From Auriscalpium vulgare (lineage: Eukaryota; Basidiomycota; Agaricomycetes; Russulales; Auriscalpiaceae), in assembly GCA_019915015.1 (NCBI GenBank), contig JAHBBC010000010.1, forward strand, positions 992,001-1,056,000: DNA of 64,000 nt, read 5' to 3'. This document shows, in pieces, positions 20,098 through 59,587 of the stretch; position 1 is the first letter of the stretch; each line of letters begins with the position of its first letter. The translations under genes were made by a program, and so were the position numbers. The notes beneath the pieces were generated by a model. That model was not told where the DNA came from. It saw only the letters and a program-made list of their open reading frames with translations, and did no database searches.

Positions 20098-20104
20098 TTT
20101 AGTG

Positions 20105-31184: not shown

Positions 31185-31210
31185 TTACGATTCCCACGAA
31201 TCGTTTCTTA
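31185..31210 (+). repeat. 5' terminus of the Helentron-like element
   Basis: Starts TTACGATTCCC; includes a perfect 7-bp stem with 4-bp loop, ACGATTC-CCAC-GAATCGT. Ten bases (TACGATTCCC) recur inverted near the 3' end at 59544-59553. Confidence 0.72.
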
Positions 31211-31345
31211 TGTCATCTTCATACCGCGTTTTTTCAGACCATGCAACACACAAGTATAGCACTATATATAGTCATTAGGTCCCACGGTCTGCTTGCCTGG
31301 CTTTGTTTCTGAACATCGCATAGCATTTGTGATTTAGGGATACTT

Positions 31346-33362
31346 TCATACATGGCTGTGGCGATGGTTGGGACATGCTAAGGTATAGTACTTTGGAGGG
31401 GAAAGAAGGGGAAGTGGGTAGATACCAAGAGTAGTCTTGAATGTATCCGCAAGGACGGCTAGTAAGTAAATCTCGACGACTTGGAGGTCTGCCTCCGGTT
31501 CGCGCGTCATGTTTCCCACCTGCGTCAGGATTTTGGGATCAAAACCTGTCATGTCACTGGCCAGATGTTTCTGGACTGGATACACGCTGACCATGTCGCG
31601 CAATACCAATAGCCAGCCCATCCTGTCCCTTACATTGTCCACATTCCACGCCGGCGGCCGGTCCACTCCGTTGAAGAAGACGAACCGGGTTAGCAGCTCG
31701 CTACGTGTGTGACGGGCATGGACCTGTGCCAAGTTCCTTCCCACATCTGATCCGCTGAGACCCAACTCCGCGTCCAAACGTGCAAGATCGAGGAGGAAGG
31801 AGTGGAGGGTTAGCTTGTAAATCAGTGTTGAACGGTTGTCGAGATTGTTGAACGTGTCGTTGTTCGCTTGGCATCCGCACGCCATTGGTGTGATGGGAAT
31901 GAGTTTGCCGGCCACGATTTGTGTGTGGTCTTCGGGTGTAAAAAACGTTGTTGAACCGAATTGGTAGAACAGCTCGTCATTGAATATGTAGTCGCTCGTC
32001 GGGTCGAACTGTTCGTTCATCTTCGGTGTCGCCTTCTTCCAGTACGTGTCGCTCAGAAAATCGCGCCAGCCCTGCGTTGTGAAGCCTGGTTGTCCCGCTC
32101 GTATCCTGCGTTCACTTGAAGCGTATAGCTGTTGCGCGCGTAGATAAAACTTTGTCTGCAGCGCCTCAGCGCGGCCCCAGAACAGGCGCGGAGGTGGTAG
32201 ACTGAACTTCCGAGGTTCCTCCAGGCTCTTGAGGATACGGTGGTCACAAGCATGTAGCATGGATTGGTCCCAGATGGCTACGGGCTGGGGTAAATACTCA
32301 GGGCGCTCGCTAGGCCGATCGTCCAGCCAGCGTCGAAGTTCTGGTTGTTGTACTTCTCGTACCCATCGACGGTCTTTGGTCTTTGCGTGAGCGGTCACCC
32401 ACTCATCACATGTGTTACTGCTTACCTTTTCCCTTTCCGTTCATGCTCTGATACTGTGCGGACGGGTTCCAAGTGTCGATACGTTCGCTGTATCCTCTGG
32501 CTGCTGCCTCAAACTTCTGATGGGTGTCGGTTGTCGGAGGATAGAACCAAAGCGGACCCTCGTGTTCTAATATCGCACCGCTGTCTTCAATCGTAGCATC
32601 TGTTTGTAACCGGGTTCTTCGTTTCGTCCCCCTGACCCTGAGCTTGTAGTCCAATGAGATTGTCGAGAGGTCAACAGGAAGGAATACAGGATAGCCGTGT
32701 TGCGCAATGTCGCGGTAAGTGAACCTGTCCTGTGCGATGGTGCCCCTCATTGCCCTCCGCGCATTTCCTGTGATAGTGTTGTCGTGCCCGCCATGGTCGA
32801 TGTCACGCCACCACTGAATGAATGCCGTCACCTCCAGGAGTCCTCGCTGCGCTGCCCTGACGCACATCAAGAGCTGCTTCCAGCTTGGCAAGCCATCGCG
32901 GATGTCGGCACGCGCTGCGCGCGCACGGAGAATGGCGTCGTAGGGAATGGTGATTGTATCCGCCAAGTCTGTCAATGCGGCCCGTCGAAGCTGGGGCTTC
33001 ATGCTTTTTGCCCATTCCACCCGCTTATCCAGACGTCCTAGGAAGGTGGCTTTCAGTGAATATAGGCGCGGCTTCGCCGATGTCTCCACCATTTCACTTC
33101 GAAATGGCGTCTTCCACAAGATCTCCACATCCAACTGGATGTCGTGATCGCCAGTCGGGAGCGGGATGTAACCCAGGTAGGGTGCTGTGGCGTCGTACGG
33201 TTGCGGAAACGCTGTCCACTCGTACTCGCCCCACCAGCCGTCGGTTTGGATCTTTGCGATATCGGACAGGCGTGGTTCCATAATTGTTCTTGTATTCAGA
33301 CAAATAATGCCTTGTCTAGTGTTCGGTGCGCTCGCCCACGCATCATAGGTCTCGGAGAACAT
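31346..33362 (-). CDS. Hypothetical two- to three-exon protein, cargo
   Basis: Exon 1 (33362 to about 32427) reads SDIAKIQTDGWWGEYEWT ... LGYIPLPTGDHDIQLDVE ... PVFLPVDLSTISLDYKLR ... ILEHEGPLWFYPPTTDTH. After a roughly 60-nt intron it continues with RRWVREVQQPELRRWLDD ... PMACGCQANNDTFNN ... LTRFVFFNGVDRPPAW ... LAVLADTFKTTLGIYP and stops near 31346. About 650 residues with no transmembrane segment or motif that I recognise. ATG 33362 and ATG 33281 (MEPRLSD) are both possible starts. It is the first gene inside the 5' end of the Helentron-like element and looks intact across one or two introns. Confidence 0.65.
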
Positions 33363-34140
33363 TGTTCGAACCGAGTGAGAGTAATCCTACAGGCAATGGG
33401 CGTGTTCGTTAGTCGGTTGCAAGTGCAACAACTGGCTGCGCACCTGCTGCTTCTTACACCTAATTCCCAGTCCACTCTTTGCTATCCTTTCAACCTCTGA
33501 GCGCAATCGCGCCTGCCCCCCTGATATGTGCGATGCGTTGGATCTACTACCTTTGATTAGCGCGCACTCTTTCTTCACGACTGTCGACACACCTCTTCTT
33601 CTATGCAACAGAAAGTGCTATCACTGTTGGTGCTGATTGTGCGCCCTCTGTGTAGAATGCCTAGGTTGTTCAATTGCTGGTTGAAGCTTCCTGATCTCGC
33701 AATAGGTGATTGCCCAGCGTGCGCGATGTCGCCAGGCCAGGCTCCAATTGTAACCGGAATCTACAGAAATACAAGAGCTCGGCCTAATAGATATCAGCAA
33801 GTATTATAAGGGCCTGATGAGTACGACGCACCGTGAAATACTACCTTTGCAAGGCAAGGTGGACAAGAAAAGGAGCGAAGTCAAGTTCCCACGGGTTCTG
33901 TCTTGGGTAACGCAATCAGCGCGCGCCACTTGCTACCTCACCCTCCTCCTTCCTCATCTCCTGTACATCCACCCTCATTATCCATCCTTTCTCGTCTTCT
34001 ATCCATGGCCTCCCTGGTGCGTACGACGCCTTTCGGCCTGTGGTTTCTTTCTGATCGTCCATCAGTCTCCCCGTTGCGCGATGCCATCTTAGTCATCCTC
34101 AAGGCCTCCCTTCTGCCTTCAAGACCCTTCCTTTTCTCCT

Positions 34141-34430
34141 ACCGACGAGCACGTTCGCGTCCTGCCTGCGACCACGCTCGACTTGCTGTCTGCGTGCTAG
34201 CATACGGATGCCCGTGCCTCGTTCTCGACGTGTCAAGATCACAGTCAAACTTCACGCACCCTCCGCGTTCAACATCATCCGCACCCCCCTTCTCCTGCAT
34301 CATCTGCTCCCTATCCGACAGCAGCGACCATGTTTGCGTCCCGGTTGCGACCACGCTCGACTTGCCGTCTGTGTGTTAGCTTACGGATGCCCATGTCTCG
34401 TTCTCCATGTGCAAGATCGCTCTTGGTCCC
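34141..34430 (+). repeat. Diverged tandem duplication, about 179 bp offset
   Basis: GCGACCACGCTCGACTTGC occurs near 34169 and near 34348, and similarity extends over roughly 90 bp (GTTAGC/GCTAGC, ACGGATGCCC, CTCGTTCTC). Confidence 0.7.
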
Positions 34431-34899
34431 TTCTGCGCTTAAATGCGTTCAATGCTCCCCGCGAACGGTTGCTGCTGTAGTTTGGGTGAGGTGGCGACAA
34501 GGAGTGCTTGGGGTGATTGACATGTGTATGGGTGCACCCCGTTGCAAGTCGTGAAGCTGCGTATCGTGTTCTAATGCTTGTCTTTTCTCGTGCCTTGATC
34601 TACTCGACATGCCGCCACTGCGTCTGATCCCCTCAGCGCATCTATTCAGTGTCCTCCTTGTATGTGAGTAGCATGCCAACGAAGGTACGTTGAGCATTTG
34701 AAGACGTACGCAATCACGTCACTGACCGAATATTTGTCAGAGTCATCGCTGGGTCTCCTAGCTCGACTACTGTCTGAAATCGAGGGCGCCAAGGCTATCA
34801 ACAACGGTTCACCTCGCACCCAGAATCAGCGCTCAGCATTGACCTGGCGCACTATCAACGGCAGAACGTTTTGCGCTCGCATCAACCTCTCGCACAATA

Positions 34900-34948
34900 T
34901 GACGTCACTCCGGTCATTAAAGTGTATTTAGTGACCGGACTGACGTCA
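34900..34948. repeat. Inverted repeat with TGACGTCA ends
   Basis: TGACGTCACTCCGGTCA at 34900-34916 and its inverse TGACCGGACTGACGTCA at 34932-34948 pair with one mismatch around a 15-nt loop. TGACGTCA is the CRE/ATF palindrome, so it could be a regulatory hairpin or a degenerate small TIR element. Confidence 0.7.
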
Positions 34949-36212
34949 TTTCACCTCTAGGCCGTCTTATTCATCGCTCTGCCCGGTGCCCCGTGAGCTA
35001 TCGCGAAGGCTTCTAAATTGTACGCGTGGCTCACCTTTTCCAACTAGCTATGTAACTTGCGCACTGGTCCTTACCGTTTGAAGGCGAAAAAGGAGCGACG
35101 GTTCAACGTTGCGGCAGTGCATTTTCATAGGACAACATGATCAGGCACGTCCTTGTGCGTTTCTTTGCATTTTTTGTGTCTCACATCTTGTTATCGTATT
35201 GTGCCTGTCCCTTATCGTCTGGCCATCCGGCTGTTTCACGGACATCAATGATCAGATGCATTTCTCCGTGCTACGTTACGATGCCGGTGGTCCCAACGCG
35301 ATCGACCGAAAACGTGCGTCCCATACCTCTGCCCACCCATATCTTCCTCTTATATGCAGAACAGATGTGCCGGGCTCCGAAAGCCTCCTGCTGTGTTTCC
35401 AATGCGAGTGCTGCGATATCGCCTCAGTAGAAGCAGATCCCGCCACCTAGTGCTCCACGAGCTGCGCGCGCTTCAACACTCGGTCCGGTCCGGACTATGT
35501 CGGCCTCGGCGTTTTGCGCCCGTGCATCACCACTCACGCCTGGCTTGCGACGGCTTGGCCCAGCCCACAGATGAAAGGCGCGCTCGTGCCCTCGGCTGCC
35601 CCCACATCAAGTACCCCATATGCTTTTGCACCATCATCGTTACATGCGTGTACCGTCTGTACGGGCCATACCTTGTTGTAATCATCACCTGCATGTCCGC
35701 CTCCCTGACCACATGTCTCCACAACACCTGCAATGAACATCTCGCACTCTTCAGACGCGCTTTACGCCACCAGCTTTGGATCTCCTACTCGACCCGGCGG
35801 CTGCGCGGAGATCGTCCTGCGGCCCGGGCCCGGAGAGTGCAGGGTCTGACTGGCGCTCAACTGAGCCCATGTTCAGCACACGACTTGGTCTTGGTGGCGG
35901 TGCTGCGCTACGGCAGTGGCCTTGCAGCCACGACTGGCGCAGACCGCATCCCTCCCTCGCTGGCTTCACATGTGCGGAGCGGAGCGTGGGCTCAACATGG
36001 CGGCCGCCCGACGCTCAAGGGCTACATCATCCCCTGGGCAACGTGCTGTATCGCAGCGGGGCACGTCGACATTCAGATGGACGGTCGCGCTCCGCGCTCG
36101 TGACGTACGTATTTACTGACTGTCGCTCTTTTTGTCTACATGTTGAAGAGAGCCGTTGCTACGCACGGCAGGTGATTCCACGCAAGCATGGGAACTAAAG
36201 TGAAGAAGAATA

Positions 36213-36718
36213 CTGTACCATTTCGATCGGTTCGCCACCCTGGTGTGACCGTGACCCAACAGGCGAAATTTCAGGTTCGCCGCTCATCGGGTGTGACCGT
36301 GACCATGGCAGCATTTCACCTCGTGAACAAGTTCGCCGCATCCATGAGACTGGGAAGGGTGAGTAGCTATCCTACACAACAATGTCAATTGTCCGTGTCA
36401 GTCTACACCGAAGCTGAGACAATGGGAGAAGCCGCTCGGTGACTGCCAAATGTACGAGATTAGATTACTCAGTGTGATAGATAAACAGACAACTAGTCAT
36501 GGAAAAATTCAATTATACACAGCAAGTCTATGTGAACCAACGTAACCTCAACTTGCAGGCCTCCCAGTGTTACTTTCGAGGCCCTTGAAAATTTCAAACT
36601 CAAGACTCGCTGGAGGCTTTCGCCACCCCGCCCTGTGACCCGTGATAGCACCCATATTTCGCCTCGCCGGACACCCCCTGTGACCCATGACCGGCGAACC
36701 GATTGAAATGGTACAGTA
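36213..36718. mobile_element. Candidate small TIR element flanked by TA
   Basis: CTGTACCATTTCGATCGG at the left is matched by the inverse of CCGATTGAAATGGTACAG at the right, followed on each side by TTCGCC inward. TA flanks both ends. Subterminal GGTGTGACCGTGACC and CCCTGTGACCCGTGA words recur inside. At about 0.5 kb with no coding capacity it resembles a Tc1/mariner-type MITE. Confidence 0.5.
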
Positions 36719-37020
36719 TATCATGAATTCGCAAATGTAACAGTTGATACCTGTGACAAATTAGAGATTTCCTGGGAATGCAAGATTTTGAGGCTTTCCT
36801 TAGCTACTTATTGAGGCGTGTTTAATGTGACGAAAAGGGAGCTACAATAAATACATACTTACATATGATGAGTTCTACATGTTTGCATTTTGTTATTTGC
36901 TACAGCAGCACTGAATGAAAGCATTTAAATTAAACATGTAGGTTATAAAGAAGGATTATATATTATGCATAATATATATATATAAAGAATAAAGTAAATG
37001 AATTTAAAATCGATTTTTTT

Positions 37021-37597
37021 CGGAAAACACGGGTGAGCCTCGGGTGAACCCGTAAAGTGTACTTTACTTCGGACTCCGACGCGCTATTCTTCTCCTTGAA
37101 AGAACTGATTCCCAATGTGGAATCAGAACAGGATATGCTTCAAGAGATGTGTAGGGTGCCTAGGTCGAAAATGTACAAACCTTCAGGAAGTTGTAGACAC
37201 CCTTCAAGAAAATGTATGGACCCTTCAAAGGTTTGTAGTCCCCCTTCAAGATGCACAGGCATGGCAGTTTGCGATCTTTAATTCTTCTGGACCGCAAATG
37301 AAAAGTAATCTTTCTTTATTTCGGTGAGCTCAAATTTATTTTATATTGCACCTGCCCAGAAGCCAATAGAGCTGTCAATATTCAAATGTTGATATACGTC
37401 GCACTCAATAGCACTCAGCCTCTGAGCTGACCCAGCGACATTGAGTCTTTTAATATGTATTGTGCTCAGAAAGAATTTAATAATGCTCCGGAAAAACGCG
37501 GGTGAGCCTCGGGTGAACCCGTAAAGTGTACTTTACTTCGGACTCCGACGCGCTATTCTTCTCCTTGAAAGAACTGATTCCCAATGTGGAATCAGAA
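37021..37597 (+). repeat. 108-bp direct repeats flanking about 360 bp
   Basis: The block 37021-37128 (CGGAAAACACGGGTGAGCC ... GTGGAATCAGAA) recurs at 37489-37597 with about two differences near its start. The repeats do not start TG or end CA, so they are not obvious LTRs. The interval is AT-rich with short CCCTTCAAG-type repeats. Confidence 0.75.
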
Positions 37598-39686
37598 TGG
37601 CTTATCTACTTTCTCTTACAGTTTGGCCGCATGCGTGCGCCTCTTGTGGCCGGGTGGACACGACACCGCGTCTCACCATCAATGATCCCGGAGACGGTTG
37701 CGTGGCCGCGCTGCCCCGTGCCAACGCCACCTTCGACGTTGACAACGGGGACGTTACGCAGCTGTAGCGCCTGCATCCCCGCCAAAGGCCGCCGCCGTCC
37801 TTGCGCTGCAGCGGCCCATGCTGCATGCCGCCGCGTCCCCGTCTCCGGATGTATGTAACTTCCGCTTCCTGGTCGAGGAGCTTGGCGCCGCGCGTGAACG
37901 AGGGACACAAGGGGACGCAATGCGCGGTTGGCTCTGCTTTGCCCATAGCGGTCATGCAGTCGCGGTGCCTTAGCTCCTCAAATGCAAAAGCTCTTGTAAG
38001 TTGATATTTTGCTCTGCAGAGCCCGACTGCGGACTCACACGACTTTCTAGCGACATTGACGTGCACCGGCCGTCACGACACTCCACATACCTGTCGCCGC
38101 ATGCACTATCAAGGCATGTCTCCTGAAGGCGGAGCTCGACGCGCAGAGACAAGCATATATGTTTTCACTCCGTTGCGCGCGCGCACGTCGGTACCCTCGT
38201 CAACGGCCGGCAGCGTTCACGCCCTCTGCAACGGCCTATCCCGCATGCCTCCTGCCGTCCCCGTCCCCGTATCCACCATGGCGGTCTAGATGTCCAATCA
38301 TTCCGCTGGTGCTCCACAACCTGCGCACACCTGAACTCCGGACTACGTCGACCTCGACGTTTTGCGGCGGTGCATTACCACATTGACCGCGGCTCGGGCT
38401 CATTTCGCACGCATCGAGGGTGCGCCTGCGCTCTCATCCTCAAGTTCACCGTATCCTTTGACGACGTCTACGACGCTATCATCCTTCCATGCGAGCTACG
38501 CGGTTACGTGTATGTATTTACTGACTGTTGTTCTTTTTGTCTATGACTTATCTACTTCCTCATTCAGTACAGTATGGCCGCATGAGCACGACTCTTGCGA
38601 TCATATGGACACTGAACCGCCTCTCGCTCTCGGACAAGGTTGCGCGGCCGCGCCGCCCCGCGCCACCTTGTTGCTCGTGGCCCGCGCCGCGCGTGCACTC
38701 TTTGCATAGGCCCAACCCACAGCTAGTCCTGACAGATCACGATTCAGACGTCACCTACGACATGGACAAGGCCATTCGCACCTACACAGTCATGCGCGGA
38801 TCAACGCACCGTCACTGCGAGTGCTGTATGTACGCGATGACCATGCTTCCTGGCGTTCTACTCACGGACTTCCTATTCTGTCTAGATGTATACACTGCAC
38901 TATTGCTGCTCTGACTGCGTCAGCCCGCTTCACCAATGGCGCATCTCCGGCTTCGCCTGGCCGTCGTCATCGCGTGTCCCACGCTGTCATGGTTGTTGCG
39001 CCGGCGGACGATCGAACACGCAGTACTTTGTCCGTGTCTGTGAAATGCCCATCCCGGTACGAGTTGACTTGCCTAGTACTTGCCGGGAGATGTCAAGTAA
39101 GCACTCCTTCACAGCTCGTGCTGACCCCGCGGTTGATGTCTTCCTATCAGAGACGGCGGGACGAACAGCGCTAGATTGCGAACTGTGGCTGCGGGCGGTG
39201 ATGTACCTTCGGGCTGTGCATGTGCCTTGAACCTCCTGTGATGCGCCCGTCCGCATCGCCACATCCCTAGGCATGTTCGTCCTTCTTGGTTTCTGACGCA
39301 ACCTGTGCTTCTTTGACATTCTGAAAACATCATGTCCGCAAGACCGCGCGCGAGTATTCCTTGTTCTTGTCTCAAGAGCGAGTGTGATGCCTTGGCTTGC
39401 ATAAGCAGGCTCTCTGCACAAATTTCCGGAAATACTCCGCCTATCTCCGTTGGTTCTGCTCACTGATTATCCTTCAACCGTTGTCATGCAGACAGTCTAT
39501 CTTGTATGTAGCTCAATGAAGTGTCTGCGACGAGACATTCAGCCCGTATGGCTGTGCGTATTGTTACATCAGGTCCCTGTTTCACATTCGTGTCTTAAGA
39601 CTGGATACGCCGTGCTGAACACGTCCTGCCCTCCCTCTGCCTTGGTCCAAGGAACCTGCACCTTCGAACTTCGTCACACAGGATAT

Positions 39687-42600
39687 GTCTTTGCCTGACT
39701 CACACAATGCCCTTCCCATGCGAGCCTTTCCACTCGCAGGGAGGGATCCTCGCCTGCCGTCTCTATTCCACGTAACCGGCACGCACCCGCAACGCAGCGA
39801 CCCACGCCTGTCGCAATACATAGGAGATGTCGGTCGGACCTTCGTGTATGTCCAAGACACTTCGGAAGCCGCCATGCAGAAAGTGTTGGATGACACCCGC
39901 GATCTTCAAATCCCGGAGACTTTTGCAGGTGTGATAGTCATTTACATGCGCGTACGCCTGCTTGCAAATTCTCATTAATGTTCGTCAGGGCTCTTGGAAC
40001 TGCAATGTGGCGACGCCATTTTTGCGCGCGCGTTGAACGGCTGTCCTTGTGGGTGCGAGGATATCATACAAGCCCTTCTCGCGACAGAGTACGTTTTCTT
40101 ACTACCCCTGTTTTCCTACGTTCTCACCGGGCATCAGACGTCTCCTGCGCATGCTACCAAATGGTGACGCCCTCTGTGATAATATGAACACTGCGAGACA
40201 GCGCGTTCTCGGTCCTGCTGCGCATCGCACGTTGTCCAAGTCTACACGCAATGCCGACACGGGGAAGCACGAGGGTGGGACCGCGTTCGAGCGCTCTGGT
40301 AACGCTCATCCTGTCCGCGGGGCTAGGGCCTACAACCTCGGTTTGGGCTACGAGCAACCGACCCAACTCGTGGCGCCGTCCGCAGGAAACAAAGGCTCAC
40401 CCGAAGTTGGCTGTACGGATGGTCTGGGCATGCGCACGCAAATACAGAAGGTACGTGTCGTTTGAGCATTTCAGGTAAAAACTAACTTTCCTGATTCCAG
40501 GCTGCAATGGCACTTGCCACCGCTGGGTATTCCTTCCTGCCTTCCGCCCACTGCGCAGCGATGCGAACACAAGCAGACCTTGTAAACGCGCCTTCTATAG
40601 GTGTTGAGGAAAACAAATATTTCTTTAATTCGCAACTCAATGTATCGCCAAGTGTCCCGGCACTTGATCGTTAGTTCCATTGTCACGGTCGTCGTTGCTC
40701 TTTTCTAATTTAATGCAAAGGCAATACCGACCTGTCTTACGCCTTGGGATTTTTCGGCGCAGTCCATCGCGACCGGCAAGACCCTGTTCCGGGACTTACT
40801 GGTATGGTATCTTGGCCTGACCTGCCGCCTGGGTACAATCCGGGTACCTTCCATCTTGTCGAACTTGGCGTCTTCGTCCGCTTAGATGGTCTGCGTGTCA
40901 TGTACTTCAATGGCTTGCGTCGGCACGGCGGAACGCCTCCGCGCGCCCCGGAGGGTCAGGAGGTTGCGAACTGGGCGTACCGCATTGTCGTCGTCTGCTA
41001 TCCCCCCAGCGTTGTACTCGAAAACCACGGTGTCACCGCCCTTGCGACACTTCGCTCTGCGGACACAGGTAACGTGGACGAATCACAGGGGAAGGCGCAC
41101 GGTATGTTAACTTTGGATATGAATGTCAAGAACAAGTATGGCTCTTGCTTACGGTTCACCAATCTTTCCGCTGATACGATTTCCACAGTCCAGAGGACCG
41201 CCGACATCAAGCCTGGTCCCGTCATGCCACATTTGCCGCGGATGGACACACTGTCATGGACAAGCCGGCATTACTCAGCTTCCATGCTCGGTCATTGTAT
41301 CTCTTGTCGGTCTATGTTCTTGCACAATTCCCGCCGCATATCAAGGTTAGTCAAAGTTTTTGCATGGGACATAAAGACATTGTTGACGCTGCGCGCGGCA
41401 GGCCATGATTGACGCGGACAAGTTCATGTCATCTTTCAGTATCGAATCCTCCGGCAGTGTCCATGTTGCGCCACCGTGGCTTCTCGCGCCAGTCTTAAAT
41501 GGTGAATATTAACTGGACTACTCAGCTTTTAGCCTCCAACTGACGTATTCAGACTTCGCCGATCCGCATGCTGTCGCTCGGCGTGCCGCGGCTGACGCAT
41601 GCAAGATTTACAGGGACAAATGCGGAGCGTTCCTTCCGTACTGCTTTGACGCTAAAGCCAAGATTAAGTCCTTGCAAATAAATTCCGATCCTTCACTCCC
41701 TGTGGGGCCTGTTCTTGGACGCCCTCCTGCTTACGCTTACCACTCTGGTACGTGGGGTCAACTTTTTGCAGTGCCCCTTTCCTGATCCATGACACAGAAG
41801 CAACCCCACCGGAGGACTATGATGTCGCCGATAATGACGAAGTAGACATCCCGAATTCAGGAAGCACGGAAGTTGTCGCAGATCGTACGGTGCCCTTCTC
41901 TCCAACGTATCTTTTTCTTGACATGTTTTCATCTAGCTGCAATCAACACGAGCACTATGGGTGTTATGCGGTCTACAGACAAGCACAAAATGGACAATGC
42001 ACTTACGAATTCCGCAGCCTCAACATCAATGTCCCTGCACACCGCCAGCCGAAAGCGCAAATGTGTGCCTGAAGCAGAACAGTTTGAGGCAACACGCGAT
42101 GATCGCAGACGTGCAGCTCAACATCGACTGCCCGCTGCTCCGGAGCAAGGTATTTCTATGTTTATGACTCATGTGGCCTTTATTGATCGCACCTATAGAC
42201 CTGGAGAAAGACTACGAGGAACGCTTACTGTCTTTGTCCTCATTTCTTTCGGCATCTTCTGCCCCGTCCGACTCTACCGTTTGCGTTCCTATTGAGCGCA
42301 TGGTCCAACCCTGGGCGATCCCACATAATATCACGAAGACTGAAATTGTAGAGATGAAAACATCACAGCCGGCACTACGCGGTATGTTGCCCTCAACTAA
42401 GCTCAGCTTGCGCTGACTCCTTTCCAGACTCATCCGTCTTTTCGCTACCTCTTATGGTGCGGGATGCGAGCACTGTAGCTTCAGCTCTTCAATGTGTCCG
42501 CTCCCTGCAGGCCCAGGCAACCGTCCACCAGGCATCGGATTTTCTATCCAACGCTCAACAGCAAATTGCGTCCCATCATTGGGCTCCCGACATACTCCCC

Positions 42601-44460: not shown

Positions 44461-44480
44461 TTCATTCTGTCTTTGTATAT

Positions 44481-47394: not shown

Positions 47395-50300
47395 ATGGTT
47401 GTTACTCGCTCCGCATCCGGAATTGCCAGCGTTCGTCCTCCCGTGGTTAGTGACTGCTCATTTTATGTCAACTGCTCCTGACAGCGTCCTTGTGTTTCTA
47501 GCCGTCTACTATTGTTGAGAAGAAGTCGACGATCACCAAGGCTGACAAGGAGACCGTTGGTTTTCTGTTATCTTTTGTCATCTGCTCTATGCTGAGAGGC
47601 CCCTTGCGTGTCTACTAGCCGGTTATTATCCCGGAGAAGAAGTTGTCGACCGTCAAGGCGAACAAGAGCACCGTTAGTGTTCTCGTATTATCCGTCGTCT
47701 GCTCTATTCTGACCACGCCTTGCGTTTCTAGCCAGCTATTATTTCTGAGAAGAAGTCGACAGTTACCAAGGCCACGAAGAAGAACAACAAGAACAAGCGT
47801 ACCACCAAGTCTGGTGCCAAGGACGCTCCTGTTGTGTCTACGGTCAAGAACAAGGTCCCTCATCACCAAGAGCCCGCCGTTGATAACCAGGATACTGCCA
47901 ACGGGCAGGGCGATGCCAATGCGGACTTGTCCGATGTCGCGTTCTTTGCTGATCCCACTGTCCGTGTGGCCGCAAAGCCGGTTGACGGAGTCCCTCCACC
48001 CAGCCGCAATGGGTTCGTCTGGTTCTCCCTACTTCTTGTACGCACACCCAGTGCTAACATGATGCATACTTTTGCAGCGTGCCGTCGGTCCTCCCCATAC
48101 GGAAGTTGACCTATGCTGAGGCTCTGTCGAGATCGGTATCACCCGTGTACGTTTCTGCTTTGCTATGCCTTGTTCTTGTTCTTGTTCTTATCCCTTCTAC
48201 TCTTTAGTAGTGATGCTTCCGACAGTGTCTCTATACACACTAGTCCTTTGGCGCACAAATCGCGCACTCGTCCAACTGTATCGGCGTCTCTCGTTCAGGC
48301 TCAGGATGCCACTGTCAACCCATCAATGTTCGTCTGTCTTATGCCTTGCGCTAGCTTTGACTAATAATCCCCATCTTCAGGACCACTCTTGACACCAGCA
48401 ACGCCGATGAAGCGGTTGTTATTGACGCTGGCAGGCCAGCGGTCATGGCTGATTCGGCGATGGTGTCAACTACGGTTCATAATGTTCCGGAGGACGCTGT
48501 TGCTATGCAGACATCGTGTGTTATCCCTTGCTTGGTCGACTCTGTGCTCATCCTCAGACACTTTTTCAGCACTGGCAAACAGCTTCGCAACACCAGAAGC
48601 TCCCGCGGAAAGCAGCCAGCAGCATCCCAGGCTGGCAAACGGGCAGTTGCAGTACAAGTCCAGGCTGTGCGCTCGGCCAAAAAGCCTATCATTGCTGCTG
48701 AGAACGATGAGCCGGATTATCGCGTAGCCAAGTGAGTTCCTCCGGATGTGTATATGCTGCATTTCTTTCGTGCTGATTGACCACAGACGTACCGGCATTT
48801 CTGCGAGGACCGCTGTTGACGACTCGGAGGTTTCTAGTGTCGCGTTGGTATTGTTCGTAATGCTCTTCGTCCTCTTTGCTTATTTTTTTTTGTAGGCCAA
48901 AGGGCGCAACATCGCCGACAACAGTCAAGTAAGGCAATAGTCGTCAGACTTGTGAGTCTTTAATAACAGTATGTTCGCAGGGCTGTCAAAAAGGCGCGCA
49001 TGTCTACGGGCGGCAAACCACCTCCTACGCAGTACGTTTCTACTGTACTTACCAGCCCTTTGCCTTATACTTACCTGCTATCATTAGACGTCACGTCGTG
49101 GTCACTGCCGACCATGACATGGAAGACGTTGAACCGGGGTCTACACCTAATTTATCACAGCCAAGCGTTGAACAGCTGTTCGACGACGACATCCAGGTTG
49201 ATTTACATTCGCGCTCTCGTGTTTCCCATCAACACAACGAGAGTGCATCAGCCCACACGGATGTCCCTAAACCAAGTGACGAGTACTCACTTGACAGTGT
49301 TGTCCCTGAAAGCGCAAATCCCGAGGTCTCGTCTCAGTATGTTTCCATGGATGTGGACGCGGTCCCCGAGATCTTGCGTATGTTGAAATCTCCTGTCTAT
49401 GCATTTTATCCTGACCTTTCTTTCAGGCGATGAGTCCGCTATCGCAGAATCACACCTGTCTCCGTATGTATGATCATTGAGATGCCCTGTTGTCTGGACT
49501 CACAGCATTGTAGACCGCCATCAACACAGCCAGGTAGCAAGCGCTCTCACAACTGGGTAGATAGCAATATTGAGCCCCCGAAGTATGCCTCATCTTGATA
49601 TTTGTCAGTGCATTGTTGACTTATTCTTTTAGAAAGCGACAAGCAACTGAGACCAATGAAACACCTGCTGGTGCTTCCGAACATGGACTTCAATCCGATT
49701 CTAGTGTTGTCCTCCTATCACCTCCGTACGTTAAGTCCCCTGCATTGTACTGACATCAACATTCATGTCTCTTTTGATCCAGAAAGCACAGGTATGACAA
49801 TGTGATGCGTGCAGAGCTGCAAGATCCTCTTTTGGAGAAGACATATATGGGCTTGCCAGTCCTACGGTACGTACTTGATCCCTGAATGCTGGAAGCATTT
49901 CACACTGACCTATTTCCCAGCGACACGCCCCTCATTCATGAAGAGCTTTATGTTGGATATAGTCTCGGTCGCGTGCTGCAACCGCGGTATCCACGGGTCA
50001 TTCTCTCGTCAGTATCTTGTATTTGCGCAAGGTCTTTCTGTTGGCTCATTCTGTTGTGCAGGGACTTGACAAAATTGGTCGAGTTCACGTCACATGCTGG
50101 CACCAACATATATAACCCGTCACGCGCCAACCCTGCCAACTTCACAACGCGCACGAATCCGAACTATCGAGCATACACCGATATATGTCGCGCTGGCAGC
50201 GGCGCTTCTAGGGCCACCAAGCTCCCTTTGGCATTCTCGCTTGTCTGGACGCATGTCTCTAGCATCAATGATCCGGAAGAAATCAATGACAAACTTGCCG

Positions 50301-50959
50301 CAACGCTCTTTGGCCATGGCATCACGCAGGATGTTGACCGGTTGTTTGCATTCGTTTCTCATGTCATGGACGATGACGAGCTGTCGCCGGTATTTGGTGA
50401 TCAGGGCAGCCTACGGTTTGGAACGTATAGTGTCGATCCCTCCGCCCCGCCAACATGTGAGTCCTATCCCGCTTGCTTGACAGGCATATTCTCACAATTG
50501 TTCAGCCTCTCAGCGCTCCAAACCGCGTTCAAGTCGCACAGCTCGACCTATCGACAAGTCAGCAATGATGTCCAGCACATCAACAATGCTTACAAACAAT
50601 TCCTGTAACATGCTCTACGAGCGTCGTACGCTGCCGGCGACCGCAACGGGTTCGTCTGCATGCTTACAGTTCTCACAGATATTTGCTTACCAGTTTTTGT
50701 CCTTACAGTTCCAATCTGGGATGCAACCCATCGCTTTACGCAGGGGTCCAGAGATCGCATTGGCAACGTCCACAGCTTCCTTGCCCAATCTCCGCATGAC
50801 CCTATGCATCATGGGCCAATCCCTGAGGACAGTCTTTGTGCTGTCCTCTATACGATTACCCGTACAACTCGCAGCGATGGCGACACGGAGACTCATCTTC
50901 TTTCATTCAACATCTCCGGAGTTATAATTTTGGTCACGCCAAACATTCCTTCTGTCTAG
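47395..50959 (+). CDS. Hypothetical protein with duplicated micro-exons, cargo
   Basis: Starts MVVTRSASGIASVRPP at 47395. Three near-repeated small exons (from 47502, 47619 and 47732) encode PSTIVEKKSTITKADKET, PVIIPEKKLSTVKANKST and PAIISEKKSTVTKATKK, followed by a lysine-rich, low-complexity region and many short exons (for example GKQPAASQAGKRAVAVQV). The C-terminal half is structured: LLEKTYMGLPVLRDTPLI, HEELYVGYSLGRVLQPRY, AFSLVWTHVSSINDPEE, LCAVLYTITRTTRSDGD, ending TAG 50957-50959. The N-terminal part looks disordered and nuclear; function unknown. At least twelve introns are implied and several are uncertain, so the model is approximate. Confidence 0.5.
47502..47800 (+). repeat. Tandemly duplicated exon-intron units
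   Basis: Three units with period about 113-117 bp. Each has a 54-nt exon beginning CCNNNTATTATT or similar and encoding xIIxEKK, then an intron with a shared CTGCTCTAT(G/T)CTGA and TTGCGTNTCTA(C)TAG end. Exon phase is preserved, so each copy adds 18 residues. Confidence 0.78.
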
Positions 50960-51099
50960 ACACTTTTTGGATTCATCGACGTAATTCAGACCCTAAATCA
51001 TCCAATGTTTGAGCTATTCAATTGGTATTTTCCTCCCACCCACGCTACCTGCTTGCGTCAGTGCAATTAGTTCGTGCCCTTAAGATCTATGGAAAGGAC

Positions 51100-52055: not shown

Positions 52056-52077
52056 TACACAGTTATTCTAAATTGAC

Positions 52078-55000
52078 ATGAATATCACTCTGCTATTTCT
52101 GAGAGCTGCCAATGGGCAATTGTTCTTTGGGCAACTGCCCGTCAAAATGACCTTCATCTTAGCCCAAATGGGCGCGGTCAAAGGACCAGGCATATGGCTC
52201 TTGATATTGGCCGCAATCGGCTTCCTTGCTACCCTGATACTGTTGCGAATTGTATACAACAAATCAGGCCCTGTACCAAATGCTAGTCGAAGCTTAGTCG
52301 GTGGTGGGCCTAGTCTTTGGACCCCTGAAGAATTGATAATGTATGATCCCTCCGGACTCACGCGCTTCCAGTGTAATGCTAAATTTCAATATGTCGGACA
52401 TGGCATTCGTCCTCCTGATATAGCAGATGATAGTCTGCTAGAGCTTTATATGCCGATACAATCCCTCACAAGGCAGCCCAGAAAGGACCTGCTGGATATT
52501 TGTACAAAACATGGCATTCATGTTTACAGGCGTTCAAACCAGGCAGCACTTGCAGCTGACATTACCTCTCATGAGACCCGCACTTGTGCTGCATGCCCTG
52601 TATTACCAACATATTTCAGATGCATCAGTGCACATCCTACGTCTACAGACAGGTCTCGAGCAAGTCGAGGAAGTCGAAAAGCAACAGGTGCTTCACACTC
52701 TTCTTCTGCTTCAAAGTCAAAGGATCATTCTAGCCCTATATTTCCTCCTCCGCCACCCTCTCACAACCTACAGCAGCATATTGTACAAGGATATTGTCAA
52801 GATATTCAATTTGATATGATCAAAGAAGAAGGCTGCAAGATATGTGCTATTCTCACTTCCTGCAAGAATATGATTCCTTGGAGGGATATTGAAAGTGATA
52901 TTGACCTGACATTACTTTCGGGGGAAGGCATTACCAGAGCACCAAGGGTGTCTGTTTCAGACCCAATATGTTCTTTGACTGGTCCGGTTTATGCACCAGG
53001 ATGTGATCTGATATGTAAGAATTGTGTAAGAGACTTGAAAAACCAAAAACGGCCTTTACATGCTTTGGCAAATGGAAATTGGATTGGCCCTGTCCCTCCT
53101 GAACTACAAGGGCTGTCATTTGTTGAAAAGCTGTTAATTGGACGTATTAGCCACAATGCATGTGTAGTCAAAGTTCATACATCTGGACATTATAAAATGC
53201 GTGCTAATACAGTGATGTATCAAGTGCCTATGCCAAAAGTATATCATGTTTTACCGCCCAAGCGAGAAGACCTCGATGAGGTTATTGCTTTCATATATAT
53301 TGGCCCTGTACGGCCAACTGAAAAGGAATTCAGGCGAACCCCACTATTGGTAAGAAGAAACAAAGTAGCAAAGGCGTTGGAGTGGCTAAAGCTAAATCAC
53401 TATGACTATGCAGACTTGAAAATATCATATGACAATCTCGCAGACTATCCTGAAGATATGCCTCCAGTAATTATTGATTACAGACAACCTCCTACAGAAG
53501 ATGACTCAGAGGACAAGGCAGTTAATAAAGAAGAGGAAAATGAAGGTACTAATGAAGGGCAATGTCCATTTGTCATTCATACATTGACAGGAGAACAGTT
53601 GGATCAAAAATCAGGTGCACAAAGGAAAATGTTGGCTATGAAATATCTCAAAGAAGGAGGAAAAGTCTTGGGCATTGGTCATGCTGAAGCACCAGAGTCA
53701 ATCTTTGGTAACCCCAGATTGTATCCCTCTGCATTTCCATGGCTGTTTCCCTATGGCCTAGGTGGATTAGGAAACACAAATGGTCTGAAAGTAGTCAGTG
53801 ATACAGCTAGAAAACGAGCTCTTCTTATGTACTATGACAAGCGTTTTCAGTTGGAGCCTCTATTTCCTTTGATAGCACTGAATCATACCCAAATTGCAAA
53901 CAGCTCAACAGGAGGCTATCTGTTAGCTGCCCGTGCCAGCTTCTCACAAATTGCAGATAGAATAATGAATATTAATTCAGATATATTGGAAACTCTGATT
54001 GCACATTTGGAAGAAGATGACAGATATAAACCACAAACTGATGAAGAGAAACAAATTTATCAAATGATCAATGACCTGGATCATGTTGCACACCATGTTC
54101 AGGGCTCTGCAACAAATAAGAAATTTATGCGCAATGAAATATGGTCTTTGATTATGTGGCTTGGTGCTCCCTCTTGGTTTATTACTTTTTCTCCTACAGA
54201 TATTAAACATCCTATAGCCCTCTATTTTGCTGATGAAAATATACATATTTATCCCAAAGTTCTGACACAGAGTGAGCGGTACAGACTCATAGCAAATAAT
54301 CCAATTGCAGGTGCTCGATTCTTCAAATTCATGGTTGAGCTCTTTCTCAAGCACGTGCTTGGTGTTGGGAACACTCACCCTGGTCTGTATGGAAAGACTG
54401 CTGGCTATTATGGGACAGTTGAGCAGCAAGGGCGCCTAACTCTTCATCTGCATATGCTTTTATGGATACAAAATGCGTTTACTCCCCAGGAAATCAAAGA
54501 TAGAATCATGGCCAATGACTCTGCATTTCAAAAAGCTCTTGTTGAGTATCTAGAGGCAACTCATCAGGGTGAGTTTGTAGATGCAAGTATGCAGGAAGTT
54601 GTTGAAAAGATGGACAAGAAGACCGCAGATGATCCTTCACGTCTTGATCCCACCATGACTGTACCTGATGCCTCGCCTGATCCCTGTAAGAACCATACAA
54701 ATGCAGTTCCAGTGGACACCTGTAATGCATGCTCTACTTCTAAATCTTGGTGGGCCTCTTTCAAAGATACTGTGAATGAGATCTTATTTAGGTCTAACAG
54801 GCATACCTGTCATTCTGGATGTAAAAATCAAAGGTACCCTTCATGTAAGTCAAGATTTCCTCGCGACGTTCATTCACAGACAACAATTGACACAGAAAAT
54901 GGTCTTTTACAAATGAAACAGGGGGAAGCCTGGCTAAATACTGTAACTCCTCTAGTGTCATATGTAATGCGGTGCAATACAGATATTACCAGTCTTCTTT

Positions 55001-55745
55001 CAGGCACAGCTATCAAATCAAGCATTGCCTATATCACTGACTATATTACAAAGACACCTCTTCGTACTAGTGCAATGCTGAAGGCTGTTAAGACAATATT
55101 TAATAGAAACTCTGAATTTATCAATGGAGATGCTACAAAGATTGAAAAGGCTAGGAAAATCATTGTGAAAATTGTTAATGCTTTAACTGTGAAGCAAGAG
55201 CTTGGGGCCCCTATGTGTGCTATGTATATTTTAGGTCATCCTGATCACTATACAATGTTTAAGTTTAAGACTTTTTACTGGAAGTCTTATATTAGTGAAA
55301 TAAAGAAATACTGGTCCTTTCTTGATACAGATGAAACTAAAGAGGAGCGTGTTGTATTGAATAGTGTTCAGGGTAATGTAGTTGCAATGTCGCCAGTTCT
55401 AGACTATATTTATAGACCAAAGGAATTTGAAAAATGGCCATTGCATGATTGGATTTCTAGAGTATACAAAGTGAGAAAAACAGCTAAAAAACCAAAAGGC
55501 AAAGGTTCTCCTATTAAAATACCACCAGTATCAATATTACCACCACATCTAAGCTCACAGTCTGCAACTCAAACTACTCAATTAAATGGTGATATTACAA
55601 TGCATGATATCACAGAAATGCACAAGAATGATGAACAGCTTCATGACGGGCTGGATGGTGATGAGCATATGTCAATCAGTGGTGACACTTTAGTTGGAAG
55701 TCAACCAGTTTCACTCAATGCATCTCAGATTAATGACAATAATGG

Positions 55746-55779
<34 letters not shown>

Positions 55780-58700
55780 ACTGATGATGATGAGGAGGTA
55801 GGAAATGATAACGAGAGCAATGACAGTGACTACATTTTTGATTCGGACTGTGATTCAGATGATGACTATAAGCAGCAGAAACAACAGAAGAAACATAAGA
55901 AAGACAAAGTAGTATACAGCTTTCTCAATGAACATCCTCAGGTCAAGACACACACAGTCAAAGTATACTCTGAGGCCAAAGCCCATGTTCCCTGTTTTGT
56001 TGGTGGTGTATTGCCTAGAAAGGATCAAGGAAATTTAGAAGACTACCATTTGACAATGTTGAGACTATTTTGCCCATGGCGTTCAGGTGCAGATATAAAA
56101 GCAGAGAACCAATCATGGTCGGATGCATTCACTTCTTATGATTTCACAGCACGACAAAAACAAATAATGAAGTTTTGCAACATCAAATATGAGTGTAATG
56201 ATGCACGTCATGATTATGCTGCACAGAGAAAGAAAGAACATTCGGAAAGGGAAGGACATCCAATTTTTGGGCGCTACATAGATGACCTTGATGCTCAACA
56301 AAGTGAAGACATCGCGGCAAGCAGTTTAGGAATTGTTGATATAAGCCATCTCGAAACTGAATGGGATGATATTGGCCCTCAGACAGCCAACAAGATGGCT
56401 CAAATGGTGCAGATTGAAAATTTAATGGAAAAGAGTGGATGGCTGAAAAAGTCTGACATGATGTCTACTGATGGCCTTGTCCCTGACTTTATTGATGGAG
56501 GAGACAAGCAATCCTCTTCTTGGAAGACTCTATTAGCCGATAAAAGGACAGAAATACTAAATAAAAAACAAGACGATGTGATGAAGGAAATGACTGGACC
56601 AGACACAGAGAAGCAGTCTGGAAATTTCAAATTCCAGGCATCTAAAGCCAATGAGGTCAAAGTAGTTGATTATGAGTATCTTTTCAAGTCATTCATACCT
56701 CAGCAGGAAAAGGACAGGGACCTTATCAGAGACACTTGCCTTGGGTTTACTCTGAATGAAGAACAAGAGCGTGCATTTACTATTATTGCAAATCACTCTA
56801 TAGATGAAAATGCATCCCAACTTAAGATGCATATTGGGGGAATGGCAGGCACTGGAAAGTCACAAGTAATCAAAGCACTGATCTCATTATTTGAAAAACG
56901 AGGACAGTCATATTTGTTCTTGATTGTTGCACCCACTGGCTCTGCCGCTGCACTTGTGTCTGGCTCAACATATCATTCTGTATTGGGTTTCAGAGGTGGT
57001 AGGGAAACACCTGGCAGTGGTATAAATAGTTCTGCAGGGACATTGTCAACAATTAGAGATCGACTACGCCATGTCAAATATGTCTTTCTAGATGAGATCT
57101 CTATGGTTGATTGTGGAGATCTTTACAATATTAGTGCTCAGATGAGTACAGCCCTGCAGATTGAAGAGCAGGCATTTGGAGGAAAAAGTATGATATTTGC
57201 TGGTGATTTTGCCCAGCTACCTCCAATCAGTGCCAAAGGCCCAGCTCTATTCAATCATAAGGTTGGAACAGTTCTTAGTACCACAAATAGTATACGTGAT
57301 CAGCGACATACAATGGGCAAGGCATTGTGGCATCAAAGTACGGTTGTAGTACTATTAAGACAAAATATGAGGCAAAATACCATATCCGAAGAAGATGCTT
57401 GTTTCCGTGTAGCATTGGAGAATATGCGATACAAGTCATGCACTTCAGATGACATAGCTTTACTCAGATCAAGAGTGCCTGGTCCACAAAATCCAGATGT
57501 GGACATTTCACATCCTAATTTTCGACATGTGTCAGTCATTACAGCCCTCAATTCACAGCGTGATCAAATTAACACACTTGGCTGTACTAAATTTGCACAA
57601 GATACAAATCAATTGCTGACCACTTTTGTATCGGTTGACAAGTGGAAATCACAGACTGTGGAAAAGCAGAGGAGAAAGAATGCCATAGATCCACACAGGA
57701 TGTCAGATATTTTGCCTGAATCTCTACAGGATAAATTAAGACAGTTGCCACATGCAGCATCTATGAATATCCCAGGTACTTTGAAGCTCTGTCGCGGATT
57801 GCCAGTTTTAATCAAGAGAAATGAAGCAACTGAAGTGTGTGTCACAAATGGTGCAGAGGGAACAGTTGTTGGATGGAAAGCAATCTTGCATAATAACAAT
57901 AAGAGTACATTGGAAACTGTCTTTGTCAAACTTACAAAGCCTCCATCTGTTGTACAGCTTGAAGGTTTGCCCATCAATGTTGTACCAATATCTAAGCAAT
58001 CTCTTCCTATACAGTGCAAAATGTCAAATGATAGTCTGGTAAATGTGACACGTGAGCAAGTTCCTATCATGCCCAATTTTGCAATGACAGACTATGGGTC
58101 TCAGGGACGTACACGACCCCACAATGTTGTAGACTTGAAGAATTGTCGGTCCCATCACTCTGTGTATACATGCCTTTCTCGAGGCTCTAGCCTTAGAGGT
58201 ACAATCATATTACAAATGTGTGATGTGTCAAAAATCACAGGAGGATTGCCTGGGTATCTCAGACAAGAATTTCGCGAGCTGGAGATATTAGATGAAATCA
58301 CAAGGTTGCGATTTATTGGTGAACTTCCTGATTATATCAATGCTACAACACGGTCAAGTCTAATTAAACAGTACCAAGCCTGGCGTGGAGCAGGAACAGT
58401 CCCAGATAAAGTCCATCACTCAATAAGATGGTCAAAAGTAGAGCCCATGGTCATTCCTTCAACAGAAGATGATACAGCTTGGAGAAAAATTTCAACCAAG
58501 CAGATGACTAAATCTGGTACTGAACGACAACCTTCAAATAAGAGGACATTTGATAATGCGCAAATTGATGGCAATGACAATGCATTTGCTCCTGCCCCAG
58601 GCACTAAAACTCTCTCCAAGCTAAACACTGACCACGGCCCTTCACGTGCAATTAAAAAAAGGCGTACTAATATAAGCCAACAAGCTACTGATAGAATTAA

Positions 58701-59505
58701 ATGTGGGATAATATGGAATGCAAACACTTGGAGTTGTGCCTATGACAGTATTATGACTATTTTATATCATATGTATACCTCTCACAAAGCTGCTTGGTCA
58801 ACGAAGGTAAAGCCTATGAATCAAGCATTTACAATTATGACAGAAGGCTGGGCCCTTCTAAATGATTCAACACAGATGTTTTCTCAATTGGAAAGCACAA
58901 GAGATAAGATTCAGCTCATGTTACATACAGAAAACTCACAGTCATTTCCTATGGATGGACGTACAGGGACAGATATCTATAGTCTTTGTGAAGAAATCTT
59001 CAAAAGTGATGTTTATCGCTTCTCAGTAAAGACAGAGTGTCTTCAATGTAATACAACTATATCATATAATCATGTCAATGTGCCATCTTGGAGGTTGGTC
59101 AATGATGTTTCTCAAACAATTGCTGCTGAACTGAAGAAAAAACTCAGTTCAAAAAGCAATCACAGATGTGCCTCCTGTCACTCCTATCTTACACGACTAG
59201 TCACATTTGACCAGGAGCCTCCTCCATTTTTGATAGTAATCTTGCCACAGCCAACAACTCAACTGAAAATTAAACAAGTGATGTCTATTGCAGAAGGGCA
59301 GACGTACAAGCTGAAAGGTATTGTATACTATGGAGAAGCACATTTTACTTCGCGCATTGTTTCTGATGATGGTAGGCTGTCATACCATGATGGAATAGCA
59401 ACAGGAAGATCCTGTATCGATGAGAACAAAATATCAGCAATTCAAGACATACACATAGCCAGAGGTAGACAAGCAAGTGTGTTAATTTATTCTAATATAT
59501 TTTAG
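52078..59505 (+). CDS. Helitron-type Rep/helicase with C-terminal USP-like peptidase domain
   Basis: A single 2475-codon exon that should drive rolling-circle transposition. Order: a hydrophobic first 60 residues; a SAP-like segment (LTRQPRKDLLDICTKHGI, about residue 125); a cysteine-containing DUF6570-like region; and the Rep domain with HLH of the HUH motif at residues 790-792 and tyrosines 985 and 989 (YITDY). A poly-Asp run (about 1223-1240) follows. The Pif1-like helicase has Walker A GMAGTGKS at 1588-1595 and DE at 1672-1673, then FAGDFAQLPP and TCLSRGSS. The C-terminal domain has NTWSCAYDS (Cys 2220), EAHFTSR (His 2422) and YHDG (Asp 2438), as in USPL-type cysteine peptidases. The AT-rich coding differs from its neighbours. 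The hydrophobic start may be spurious; Met 88 (52339) is an alternative. No breaks seen. Confidence 0.93.
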
Positions 59506-59543
59506 GTATTATGATTTTTAGTATTAGTCATTCCATACAATCC

Positions 59544-59587
59544 GGGAATCGTACTGCCGTGCTCTGCATCGGCTCACTCCCAGCAAG
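59544..59587 (+). repeat. 3' terminus of the Helentron-like element
   Basis: GGGAATCGTA at 59544-59553 is complementary to the element's 5' end. It is followed by the stem GCCGTGC/GCATCGGC (59556-59573, one bulged base, 3-nt loop) and a 14-nt tail ending CAGCAAG. The flanking T at 59588 begins the interrupted integrase gene. Confidence 0.75.

Follow-up and report, generated by a model that had tools for sequence, protein, structure and literature searches.

In the parts of a 2019 review drawn on here (PMC6431247), fungal Helitrons measure 6–14 kb, maize elements reach up to 39 kb and carry gene fragments, and the capture of full-length genes by Helitrons is called exceptionally rare. Of the described fungal systems, the Helitron2 elements of Fusarium oxysporum (FoHeli) combine, in the excerpted account (PMC5148889), a Rep joined with a PIF1 helicase, asymmetric terminal inverted repeats, terminal hairpins and non-autonomous relatives, while Helentrons, in the extract of PMC4067079, insert next to T and have subterminal inverted repeats, a 3′ stem-loop and accessory genes. 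Autonomous helitrons of Pleurotus ostreatus (HELPO1, with cap genes) possess one to four helitron-only extra genes within 6.6–13.7 kb (PMC4289320, in part), and a Helitron2 with a TET/JBP-like gene, for which escape from methylation was proposed, is on record from Agaricus bisporus, another of the Agaricomycetes (Kojima 2025, PMC12730594, in part). The best matches in the open-licence literature include no report of giant fungal Helitrons. Here we analyse a 64,000-nucleotide stretch (the window) of the 51.6-Mb, 96-contig genome of Auriscalpium vulgare (GCA_019915015.1; contig JAHBBC010000010.1, here C10, positions 992001–1056000), in which positions 31185–59587 form a single mobile unit of 28,403 bp, TTACG...CAAG. 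It shares with FoHeli and Helentrons the traits just listed for each, its 3′ hairpin being foldable but unexceptional, and differs from FoHeli-type Helitron2 in its family's size of 26–29 kb, in several conserved extra genes and in its terminal letters; it also exceeds HELPO1 in size. We read it as a giant Helitron2-type transposon that owns a set of accessory genes, uses a TET-like enzyme against silencing and has grown stepwise, a joint reading to which we assign a probability of roughly 0.85. Its length of about 28 kb is attributed to the lasting extra gene set that it carries.

The unit and its insertion site are laid out as follows:

31185–59587, plus strand: whole mobile unit, 28,403 bp, inserted 5′ of a T without target duplication; delimited by ends common to other copies, by the reading frame across the joined flanks and by paralogous empty sites of sister copies
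31185–31205, plus strand: 5′ terminus, with the TACGATTCCC arm of the asymmetric inverted repeat (31186–31195) and the hairpin ACGATTC/GAATCGT (31187–31204)
59544–59587, plus strand: 3′ terminus, with the GGGAATCGTA arm (59544–59553), a hairpin (59556–59573) and a 14-nt tail ending in CAAG
59588–60554, minus strand: part of the flanking rva_4 integrase-core gene upstream of the insertion; its frame resumes below 31184

The first-pass annotation had proposed that two halves of an integrase-core gene join perfectly across the insertion. This is indeed the case: leaving out exactly 31185–59587, and only that, lets the rva_4 gene read ...FFTRLE followed directly by NLHSLDP..., and one T added at the joined flanks destroys the frame. 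The gene lies in the flank. A search of the genome with both end regions, as suggested at the time, places the boundaries at the same bases. Among the 40 other matches listed for the 5′ region, 26 begin exactly at 31185 and 11 begin at most 7 bases before it (the remaining three, all on contig C47, fall within the element only), and every one of the 40 matches scored for the 3′ region, the best 40 of 133 candidates, stops at 59587. Where ends located by similarity to those of the window were printed, TTACGATTCC starts 24 of 24 5′ ends, and CAAG followed by T closes 22 of 22 3′ ends. Genome-wide, there are 216 exact occurrences of the 5′ motif (103 + 113) and 182 of the 3′ motif (86 + 96), against 0 + 0 for either reversed control; within the window each is present once at up to two mismatches, with 0.00 and 0.01 occurrences expected. 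The asymmetric 10-bp inverted repeat, TACGATTCCC versus GGGAATCGTA in direct reading, can be read off the window as annotated, and its arms are identical in the four giant copies described below. Two of the annotated terminal traits hold in part. The 3′ hairpin 14 nt from the end is foldable, with z scores of −1.3 and −1.7 against shuffled sequences that make it unexceptional, the 5′ hairpin being the stronger one (z −2.8). As for the T/T target, the T after the element stands, whereas the base preceding TTACG varies and the contiguous empty sites lack a duplication. Short copies with both ends, for which the annotation had suggested a search, were found at 16 fetched loci and span 453 to 1,556 bp, the fetched loci being about 3 kb long and hence able to show short copies only. 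At locus L016, a short copy is inserted right within the 5′ terminus of a second copy, an arrangement that fits insertion 5′ of T without duplication.

Four other places in the genome have both ends together with the giant content, on contigs C22 (25,881 bp), C4 (25,897 bp), C13 (29,103 bp) and C52 (52,076 bp). The pair on C22 and C4 shows 99.7% identity over 25.9 kb (49 substitutions in 25,875 aligned bases), and that on C13 and C52 about 99.8% over 29.1 kb (64 substitutions in 29,120 aligned bases). The flanks of the giant copies are unrelated, and similarity ends at, or at most two bases from, the element termini (within one base for C22/C4). The C52 copy is larger because four extra nested segments of about 0.5, 3.3, 3.4 and 15.8 kb, as deduced from alignment gaps, break it up; the longest forward open frame in the region of this element (C52:18001–82000) has 1,003 codons. 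The window copy matches all four with about 77–82% identity in long conserved segments that keep the same order, the stretches 33.4–39.7 and 45.8–52 kb being far more diverged. Empty sites were sought with joined flanks, the best 40 of 93 candidates being scored. The joined flanks of C4 are uninterrupted at seven places at 97–99% identity, four of them of exactly the expected 360 bases, and at fifteen more at 90–91%; those of C52 at four places at 90–92%, all of the expected length; and those of C22 at two places at 75–76%, with indels. Thus, empty sites exist for three of the four other giant copies and are base-exact for two (C4 and C52), with no target-site duplication at the contiguous empty sites of these two insertions; the joined C52 flanks also keep an open frame. 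For the C13 copy and the window insertion no empty site was found elsewhere in the genome. Since the two near-identical pairs have unrelated flanks, whole units moved recently, and they did so as intact 26–29 kb units.

Two other accounts can be weighed against these results. The locus could be a composite, in which a small Helitron2 starting near 52.0 kb lies beside an unrelated insertion or a host segment, with the 5′ end of a short non-autonomous element in place by chance. Short copies with an identical 5′ end are numerous, and Rep and cargo are unlike in GC and CpG content, as such an origin would have it. Yet, rather than Rep copies whose 5′ end lies near 52.0 kb, we found four close copies that run from the common 5′ end through the cargo to the common 3′ end, with the same genes; two pairs moved as whole units; there are contiguous empty sites; and the TET-like gene and the genes termed D and E below lie upstream of Rep in 18 elements. 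We therefore regard a composite as very improbable for this family, although the family could have arisen in that way long ago. Segmental duplication or an assembly artefact in place of transposition is about as hard to maintain, if not slightly harder: identical pairs with identical flanks do exist (L006/L007 and L026/L027), but the giant copies have unrelated flanks with similarity that stops at the termini, and paralogous sites without the unit are present. The annotated giant insertion with its cargo inside one mobile unit therefore agrees with both the close copies and the empty sites.

The enzyme next to the 3′ end places the unit among the rolling-circle transposons:

52072–59505, plus strand: Rep/helicase open frame, 2,477 codons, model start at 52147
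about 53044–53442, plus strand: DUF6570 in Rep (Pfam)
about 53824–54462, plus strand: Helitron_like_N in Rep (Pfam, 8.6e-31)
about 54445–54456, plus strand: HLH motif in Rep (motif reading)
about 55030–55053, plus strand: YITDYITK in Rep (motif reading)
about 56752–57387, plus strand: PIF1 helicase in Rep (Pfam, 1.6e-21)

Besides HLH and YITDYITK the frame contains GMAGTGKS, and we take the three to be the HUH, two-tyrosine and helicase motifs, respectively. An HUH and two-tyrosine Rep is thus joined with a PIF1/SF1 (superfamily 1) helicase in one protein, the combination that marks Helitron2-type elements, and the ratio of nonsynonymous to synonymous substitution rates (dN/dS) of Rep is 0.09–0.10 against C22 and C13. 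Pfam returned no AP (apurinic/apyrimidinic) endonuclease in the 2,477-aa frame or its C-terminal 271 aa, nor in the five cargo models, and no OTU domain in the Rep frame or those models, which sets the element apart from Helentrons. Because no AP-endonuclease was found, Helitron2 is preferred over Helentron sensu stricto, so that of the annotated class, Helentron/Helitron2-like, the Helitron2-like Rep/PIF1 and the asymmetric repeat stand and the strict Helentron part does not. Such an endonuclease domain was found in no fungal Helitron according to the excerpted account of FoHeli (PMC5148889) and is mentioned for certain fungal Helentrons in the parts of the review drawn on (PMC6431247). A cysteine-protease-like domain suspected by eye in the last 270 aa of Rep was dropped, Pfam giving only two weak matches below cut-off for this C-terminus and a PDB sequence search no credible match. 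Judged by its Rep and its ends, then, the element is a giant Helitron2-like rolling-circle transposon. Starships, giant mobile units of eukaryotes that likewise bring their own gene sets, have as their hallmark a tyrosine-recombinase captain gene (DUF3435), and Pfam matched no captain in the five cargo models or in ten frames taken from stretches without a model. For the protein-primed DNA polymerase B and retroviral-type integrase of Mavericks/Polintons, Pfam likewise gave no match in Rep, the five cargo models or the ten further frames. Mavericks, in the parts of the review drawn on (PMC6431247), are giant eukaryotic mobile units with their own gene sets as well; the present unit differs from both groups in that Rep/helicase is the sole mobility enzyme in the Pfam scans of its frames.

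By analogy with its enzyme family, Rep with its PIF1 helicase would recognise the 5′ TTACGATTCC hairpin and, at the other side, the 3′ inverted-repeat arm, hairpin and CAAG. Rep would nick at the 5′ end and the helicase would peel off one strand, which would be copied; the 3′ arm and hairpin would mark the end of the element, and the strand would be joined 5′ of a T, leaving no target duplication. The TET-like dioxygenase, in turn, would oxidise methylated bases on the element DNA and let it resist silencing. The products of such a mechanism were observed as common ends, contiguous empty sites and recent near-identical copies.

Upstream of Rep, five genes (A, TET-like, D, E and F) were modelled by a comparative script:

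31346–33362, minus strand: gene A, 654 aa, two exons (32426–33362 and 31346–32373), reading towards the 5′ end; no Pfam family; dN/dS 0.10–0.13
33363–39684, no strand assigned: rapidly diverging segment with no gene model and a short conserved piece at 34136–34405; no Pfam match in five frames scanned
39685–41408, plus strand: TET/JBP-like 2-oxoglutarate (2OG)-Fe(II) dioxygenase, 480 aa; exons 39685–39928, 39989–40088, 40138–40450, 40501–40651, 40721–41135 and 41189–41408
41426–44460, plus strand: gene D, 929 aa, six exons (41426–41501, 41553–41747, 41798–41884, 41937–42172, 42219–42381 and 42428–44460); no Pfam family
44328–45714, minus strand: gene E, model of 368 aa on the strand opposite to Rep, C-terminus uncertain in the window; no Pfam family; dN/dS 0.08–0.10
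49000–50959, plus strand: gene F, about 438 aa in an uncertain model of 11 exons; 61–63% amino acid identity to C22/C13

The only Pfam match among the five models is that of the dioxygenase (Tet_JBP); the ten frames from unmodelled stretches gave none, shorter frames lying outside that scan. As annotated, the cargo is GC-richer than Rep (0.52 vs 0.41) and contains several multi-exon genes; outside the element, window positions 20001–22000 are AT-rich (GC 0.41) with no long open frame. Selection was gauged by dN/dS between the window and the C22 and C13 copies, and also between C22 and C13. The TET-like gene scores 0.10–0.11 against C22/C13 (0.05–0.06 for the catalytic exon) and 0.22 between these two, and gene D 0.21 and 0.24, respectively, while an exon of D read out of frame as a negative control gives 3.1–3.9. 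For gene F, synonymous sites are saturated or nearly so in comparisons with the window copy, and the C-terminus of the TET-like protein is variable, the C22 copy stopping at codon 463 of 481. These ratios indicate that A, the TET-like gene, D and E are under purifying selection. With dN/dS low and TET, D and E linked to Rep, the upstream 20 kb is not a recent random capture. Genes A, D, E and F stay so constantly close together that they may serve in transposition or in counter-defence.

Linkage was assessed from all 64 Rep matches, merged into 51 loci, together with every D match (22), every TET match (19), 31 E places (one row each out of 86 exon rows) and 7 of the 52 A rows. Where Rep is at least 81% identical, A, TET, D and E are all present (7/7 loci). 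At 60–65%, E is found in 12 of 13 loci and D and TET in 11 of 13; at 50–55%, E is found in 6 of 12, one of these being a Rep fragment inside an already counted element and the sole one with D and TET; and at 44–48%, E is found in 6 of 7. Taking 44–55% together and leaving out the fragment counted twice, 11 of 18 loci have E without the other cargo genes, and E is thus the cargo gene that accompanies the most distant Reps. Seen from the cargo, a Rep lies at most 52 kb downstream in the expected orientation for 18 of 19 TET exons, 20 of 22 D matches and 30 of 31 E places. The TET, D and E genes look like accessory genes owned by the element, because they are present in every close copy, keep their order and orientation and are under purifying selection; gene A, judged by the places at which it occurs, appears to live elsewhere as well. 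The alternative, that the cargo was captured from a host and that the element serves to carry functional host genes from one genome to another, we consider unlikely. It would account for complete multi-exon genes without transposon domains, for the host-like GC of the cargo and for the situation of gene A, 11 of whose 22 places show no Rep of 44% identity or more in the 80 kb downstream. In this one genome, though, no free host copy of TET or E was seen, the leftover TET, E and one of two D matches sitting together, and the gene set persists in lineages with about 46% identity between their D proteins. The role as a vehicle for gene transfer raised by the first-pass annotation is not borne out, since TET, D and E are nearly always found with Rep and are under purifying selection.

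The catalytic exon of the dioxygenase (40721–41135) holds HRD, H and R, and none of seven aligned catalytic exons, with identities as low as 48%, departs from HxD, the distal H and R. The TET+ Helitron2 of A. bisporus should, by the grouping in its source (PMC12730594, in part), be of the PE type, with HxE, a form not matched by the HxD of all seven exons here. A TET-bearing Helitron2 is thus already published, and the present family stands out by its size and its conservation. In the same partial source, Kojima proposes a role for TET in methylation escape for other fungal transposons, and by analogy the present enzyme most likely oxidises methylated bases on element DNA and counters silencing, so that the element-owned gene set probably includes an anti-silencing enzyme.

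Several observations weigh against our reading. No cargo gene was detected in 7 of the 18 Rep loci at 44–55% identity, and A, TET, D and E were detected in none of the 12 loci with Rep below 44%; missing matches in these distant groups may reflect a lack of sensitivity. Downstream of one TET–D–E set (C2, near 2.54 Mb) there is no Rep match, and the same is true of a D fragment on C35; the former is perhaps a giant element that lost its Rep. This region (C2:2509–2544 kb) also contains, some 28 kb upstream of the set, an A-like gene oriented as usual. The 52 A rows amount to 22 places. For 11 of them, a Rep with at least 44% identity follows within 80 kb and is oriented as expected; these comprise seven close copies, one distant A-like gene inside a C47 element and three near 60–65% Reps. 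The other 11 have none. The three A-like genes near 60–65% Reps are distant (33–36% identity) and lie 25, 35 and 71 kb upstream; they speak against a scheme in which A was gained last and is limited to the close family. Gene A may belong to, or come from, another mobile element. Distant, repeated A relatives (about 35%) with no Rep of at least 44% nearby are found at C3:656 kb, C10:211 and 257 kb, C22:693 kb, C48:30 kb, C4:1.17 and 1.38 Mb, C28:316 kb, C1:3.56 Mb and C19:193 kb. Gene E stops at codon 268 in C22 and C13, 66 codons short of the end of the compared window segment. The ends and sizes given here are those of the close copies; for the 60–65% and more distant Rep lineages, pairing exact-motif ends with diverged Reps by eye (first places of the 216 and 182) gave no clear boundaries. 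Contig C47 has two more giant elements (6.6–45 kb and 98–123 kb) in inverted orientation.

The enzyme assignment meets objections of the same standing. The Tet_JBP match of the window protein scores 19.7 bits (E 5e-4), below the Pfam curated cut-off of 34.9, and scores range from 13.0 to 21.2 bits overall, with no match for one copy (L054). Among five further exons Tet_JBP is the best match in four, weakly so (E 0.0014–0.06), and the most divergent exon has none. PDB sequence and profile searches with the TET-like protein found no credible match, and single-sequence structure prediction of the catalytic exon alone gave no usable fold (mean predicted local distance difference test score 35.7). 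The protein could, accordingly, be another 2OG-Fe(II) oxygenase, acting on RNA or protein or making another base modification, and not a DNA demethylase. Beyond the sub-cut-off match and its absence from the most divergent exon, this is favoured by a simple offset from HxD, which puts D and T of the window protein where CcTET has G331 and D337 (PMC12730594, in part). Against it stand Tet_JBP as the best match in four of the five exons, the conserved HxD, H and R, and TET/JBP genes carried by other fungal transposons in that source, and we hold this alternative to be the less probable one, though a serious contender. The substitution pattern speaks to the presumed target: CpG to TpG/CpA changes make up 23 of the 49 substitutions of C22/C4, where CpG bases are 10.6% of the sequence (binomial p ~1e-10), and 32 of the 64 of C13/C52, where they are 12% (p ~1e-13), both under a uniform rate, a crude null without a host control. 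Such an excess of transitions fits cytosine methylation of the elements. CpG observed/expected is 0.35–0.40 in Rep and 0.99–1.04 in the cargo of the four elements checked (window, C22, C4 and C13), a contrast that would not follow simply from demethylation. Rep is AT-rich and CpG-depleted, yet young copies show many CpG transitions in the cargo too.

Within the giant elements the genes have differing histories. Between C22 and C13 the synonymous divergence (dS) is 0.085 for the TET-like gene, 0.23 for D, 0.40 for E, 0.56 for Rep and 0.75 for A, and in the two C47 elements the longer A pieces are 77–84%, Rep 81%, TET 68% and D only 44% identical, which suggests an exchange of segments between elements. 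Judging by the Rep groups in which each gene occurs, we infer that the set was probably built up step by step as the Rep lineage evolved, with E arriving before TET and D; the order of gain is blurred because A-like genes occur near some distant Reps. The D proteins of lineages that keep the TET–D–E set are about 46% identical. The fuller scenario, in which a rolling-circle lineage became a giant multi-gene parasite by stepwise accretion (E before TET and D), with its own anti-silencing module and with reshuffling of modules, is tentative, and we would put it at slightly below even odds.

In this family, then, selected multi-exon genes have travelled with a rolling-circle transposon until their proteins diverged to about 46% identity. 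The near-identical copies offer a natural system for asking whether transposon-borne TET-like enzymes counter methylation silencing. If the scenario of stepwise accretion is true, such a lineage would stand beside Starships and Mavericks as their rolling-circle counterpart.

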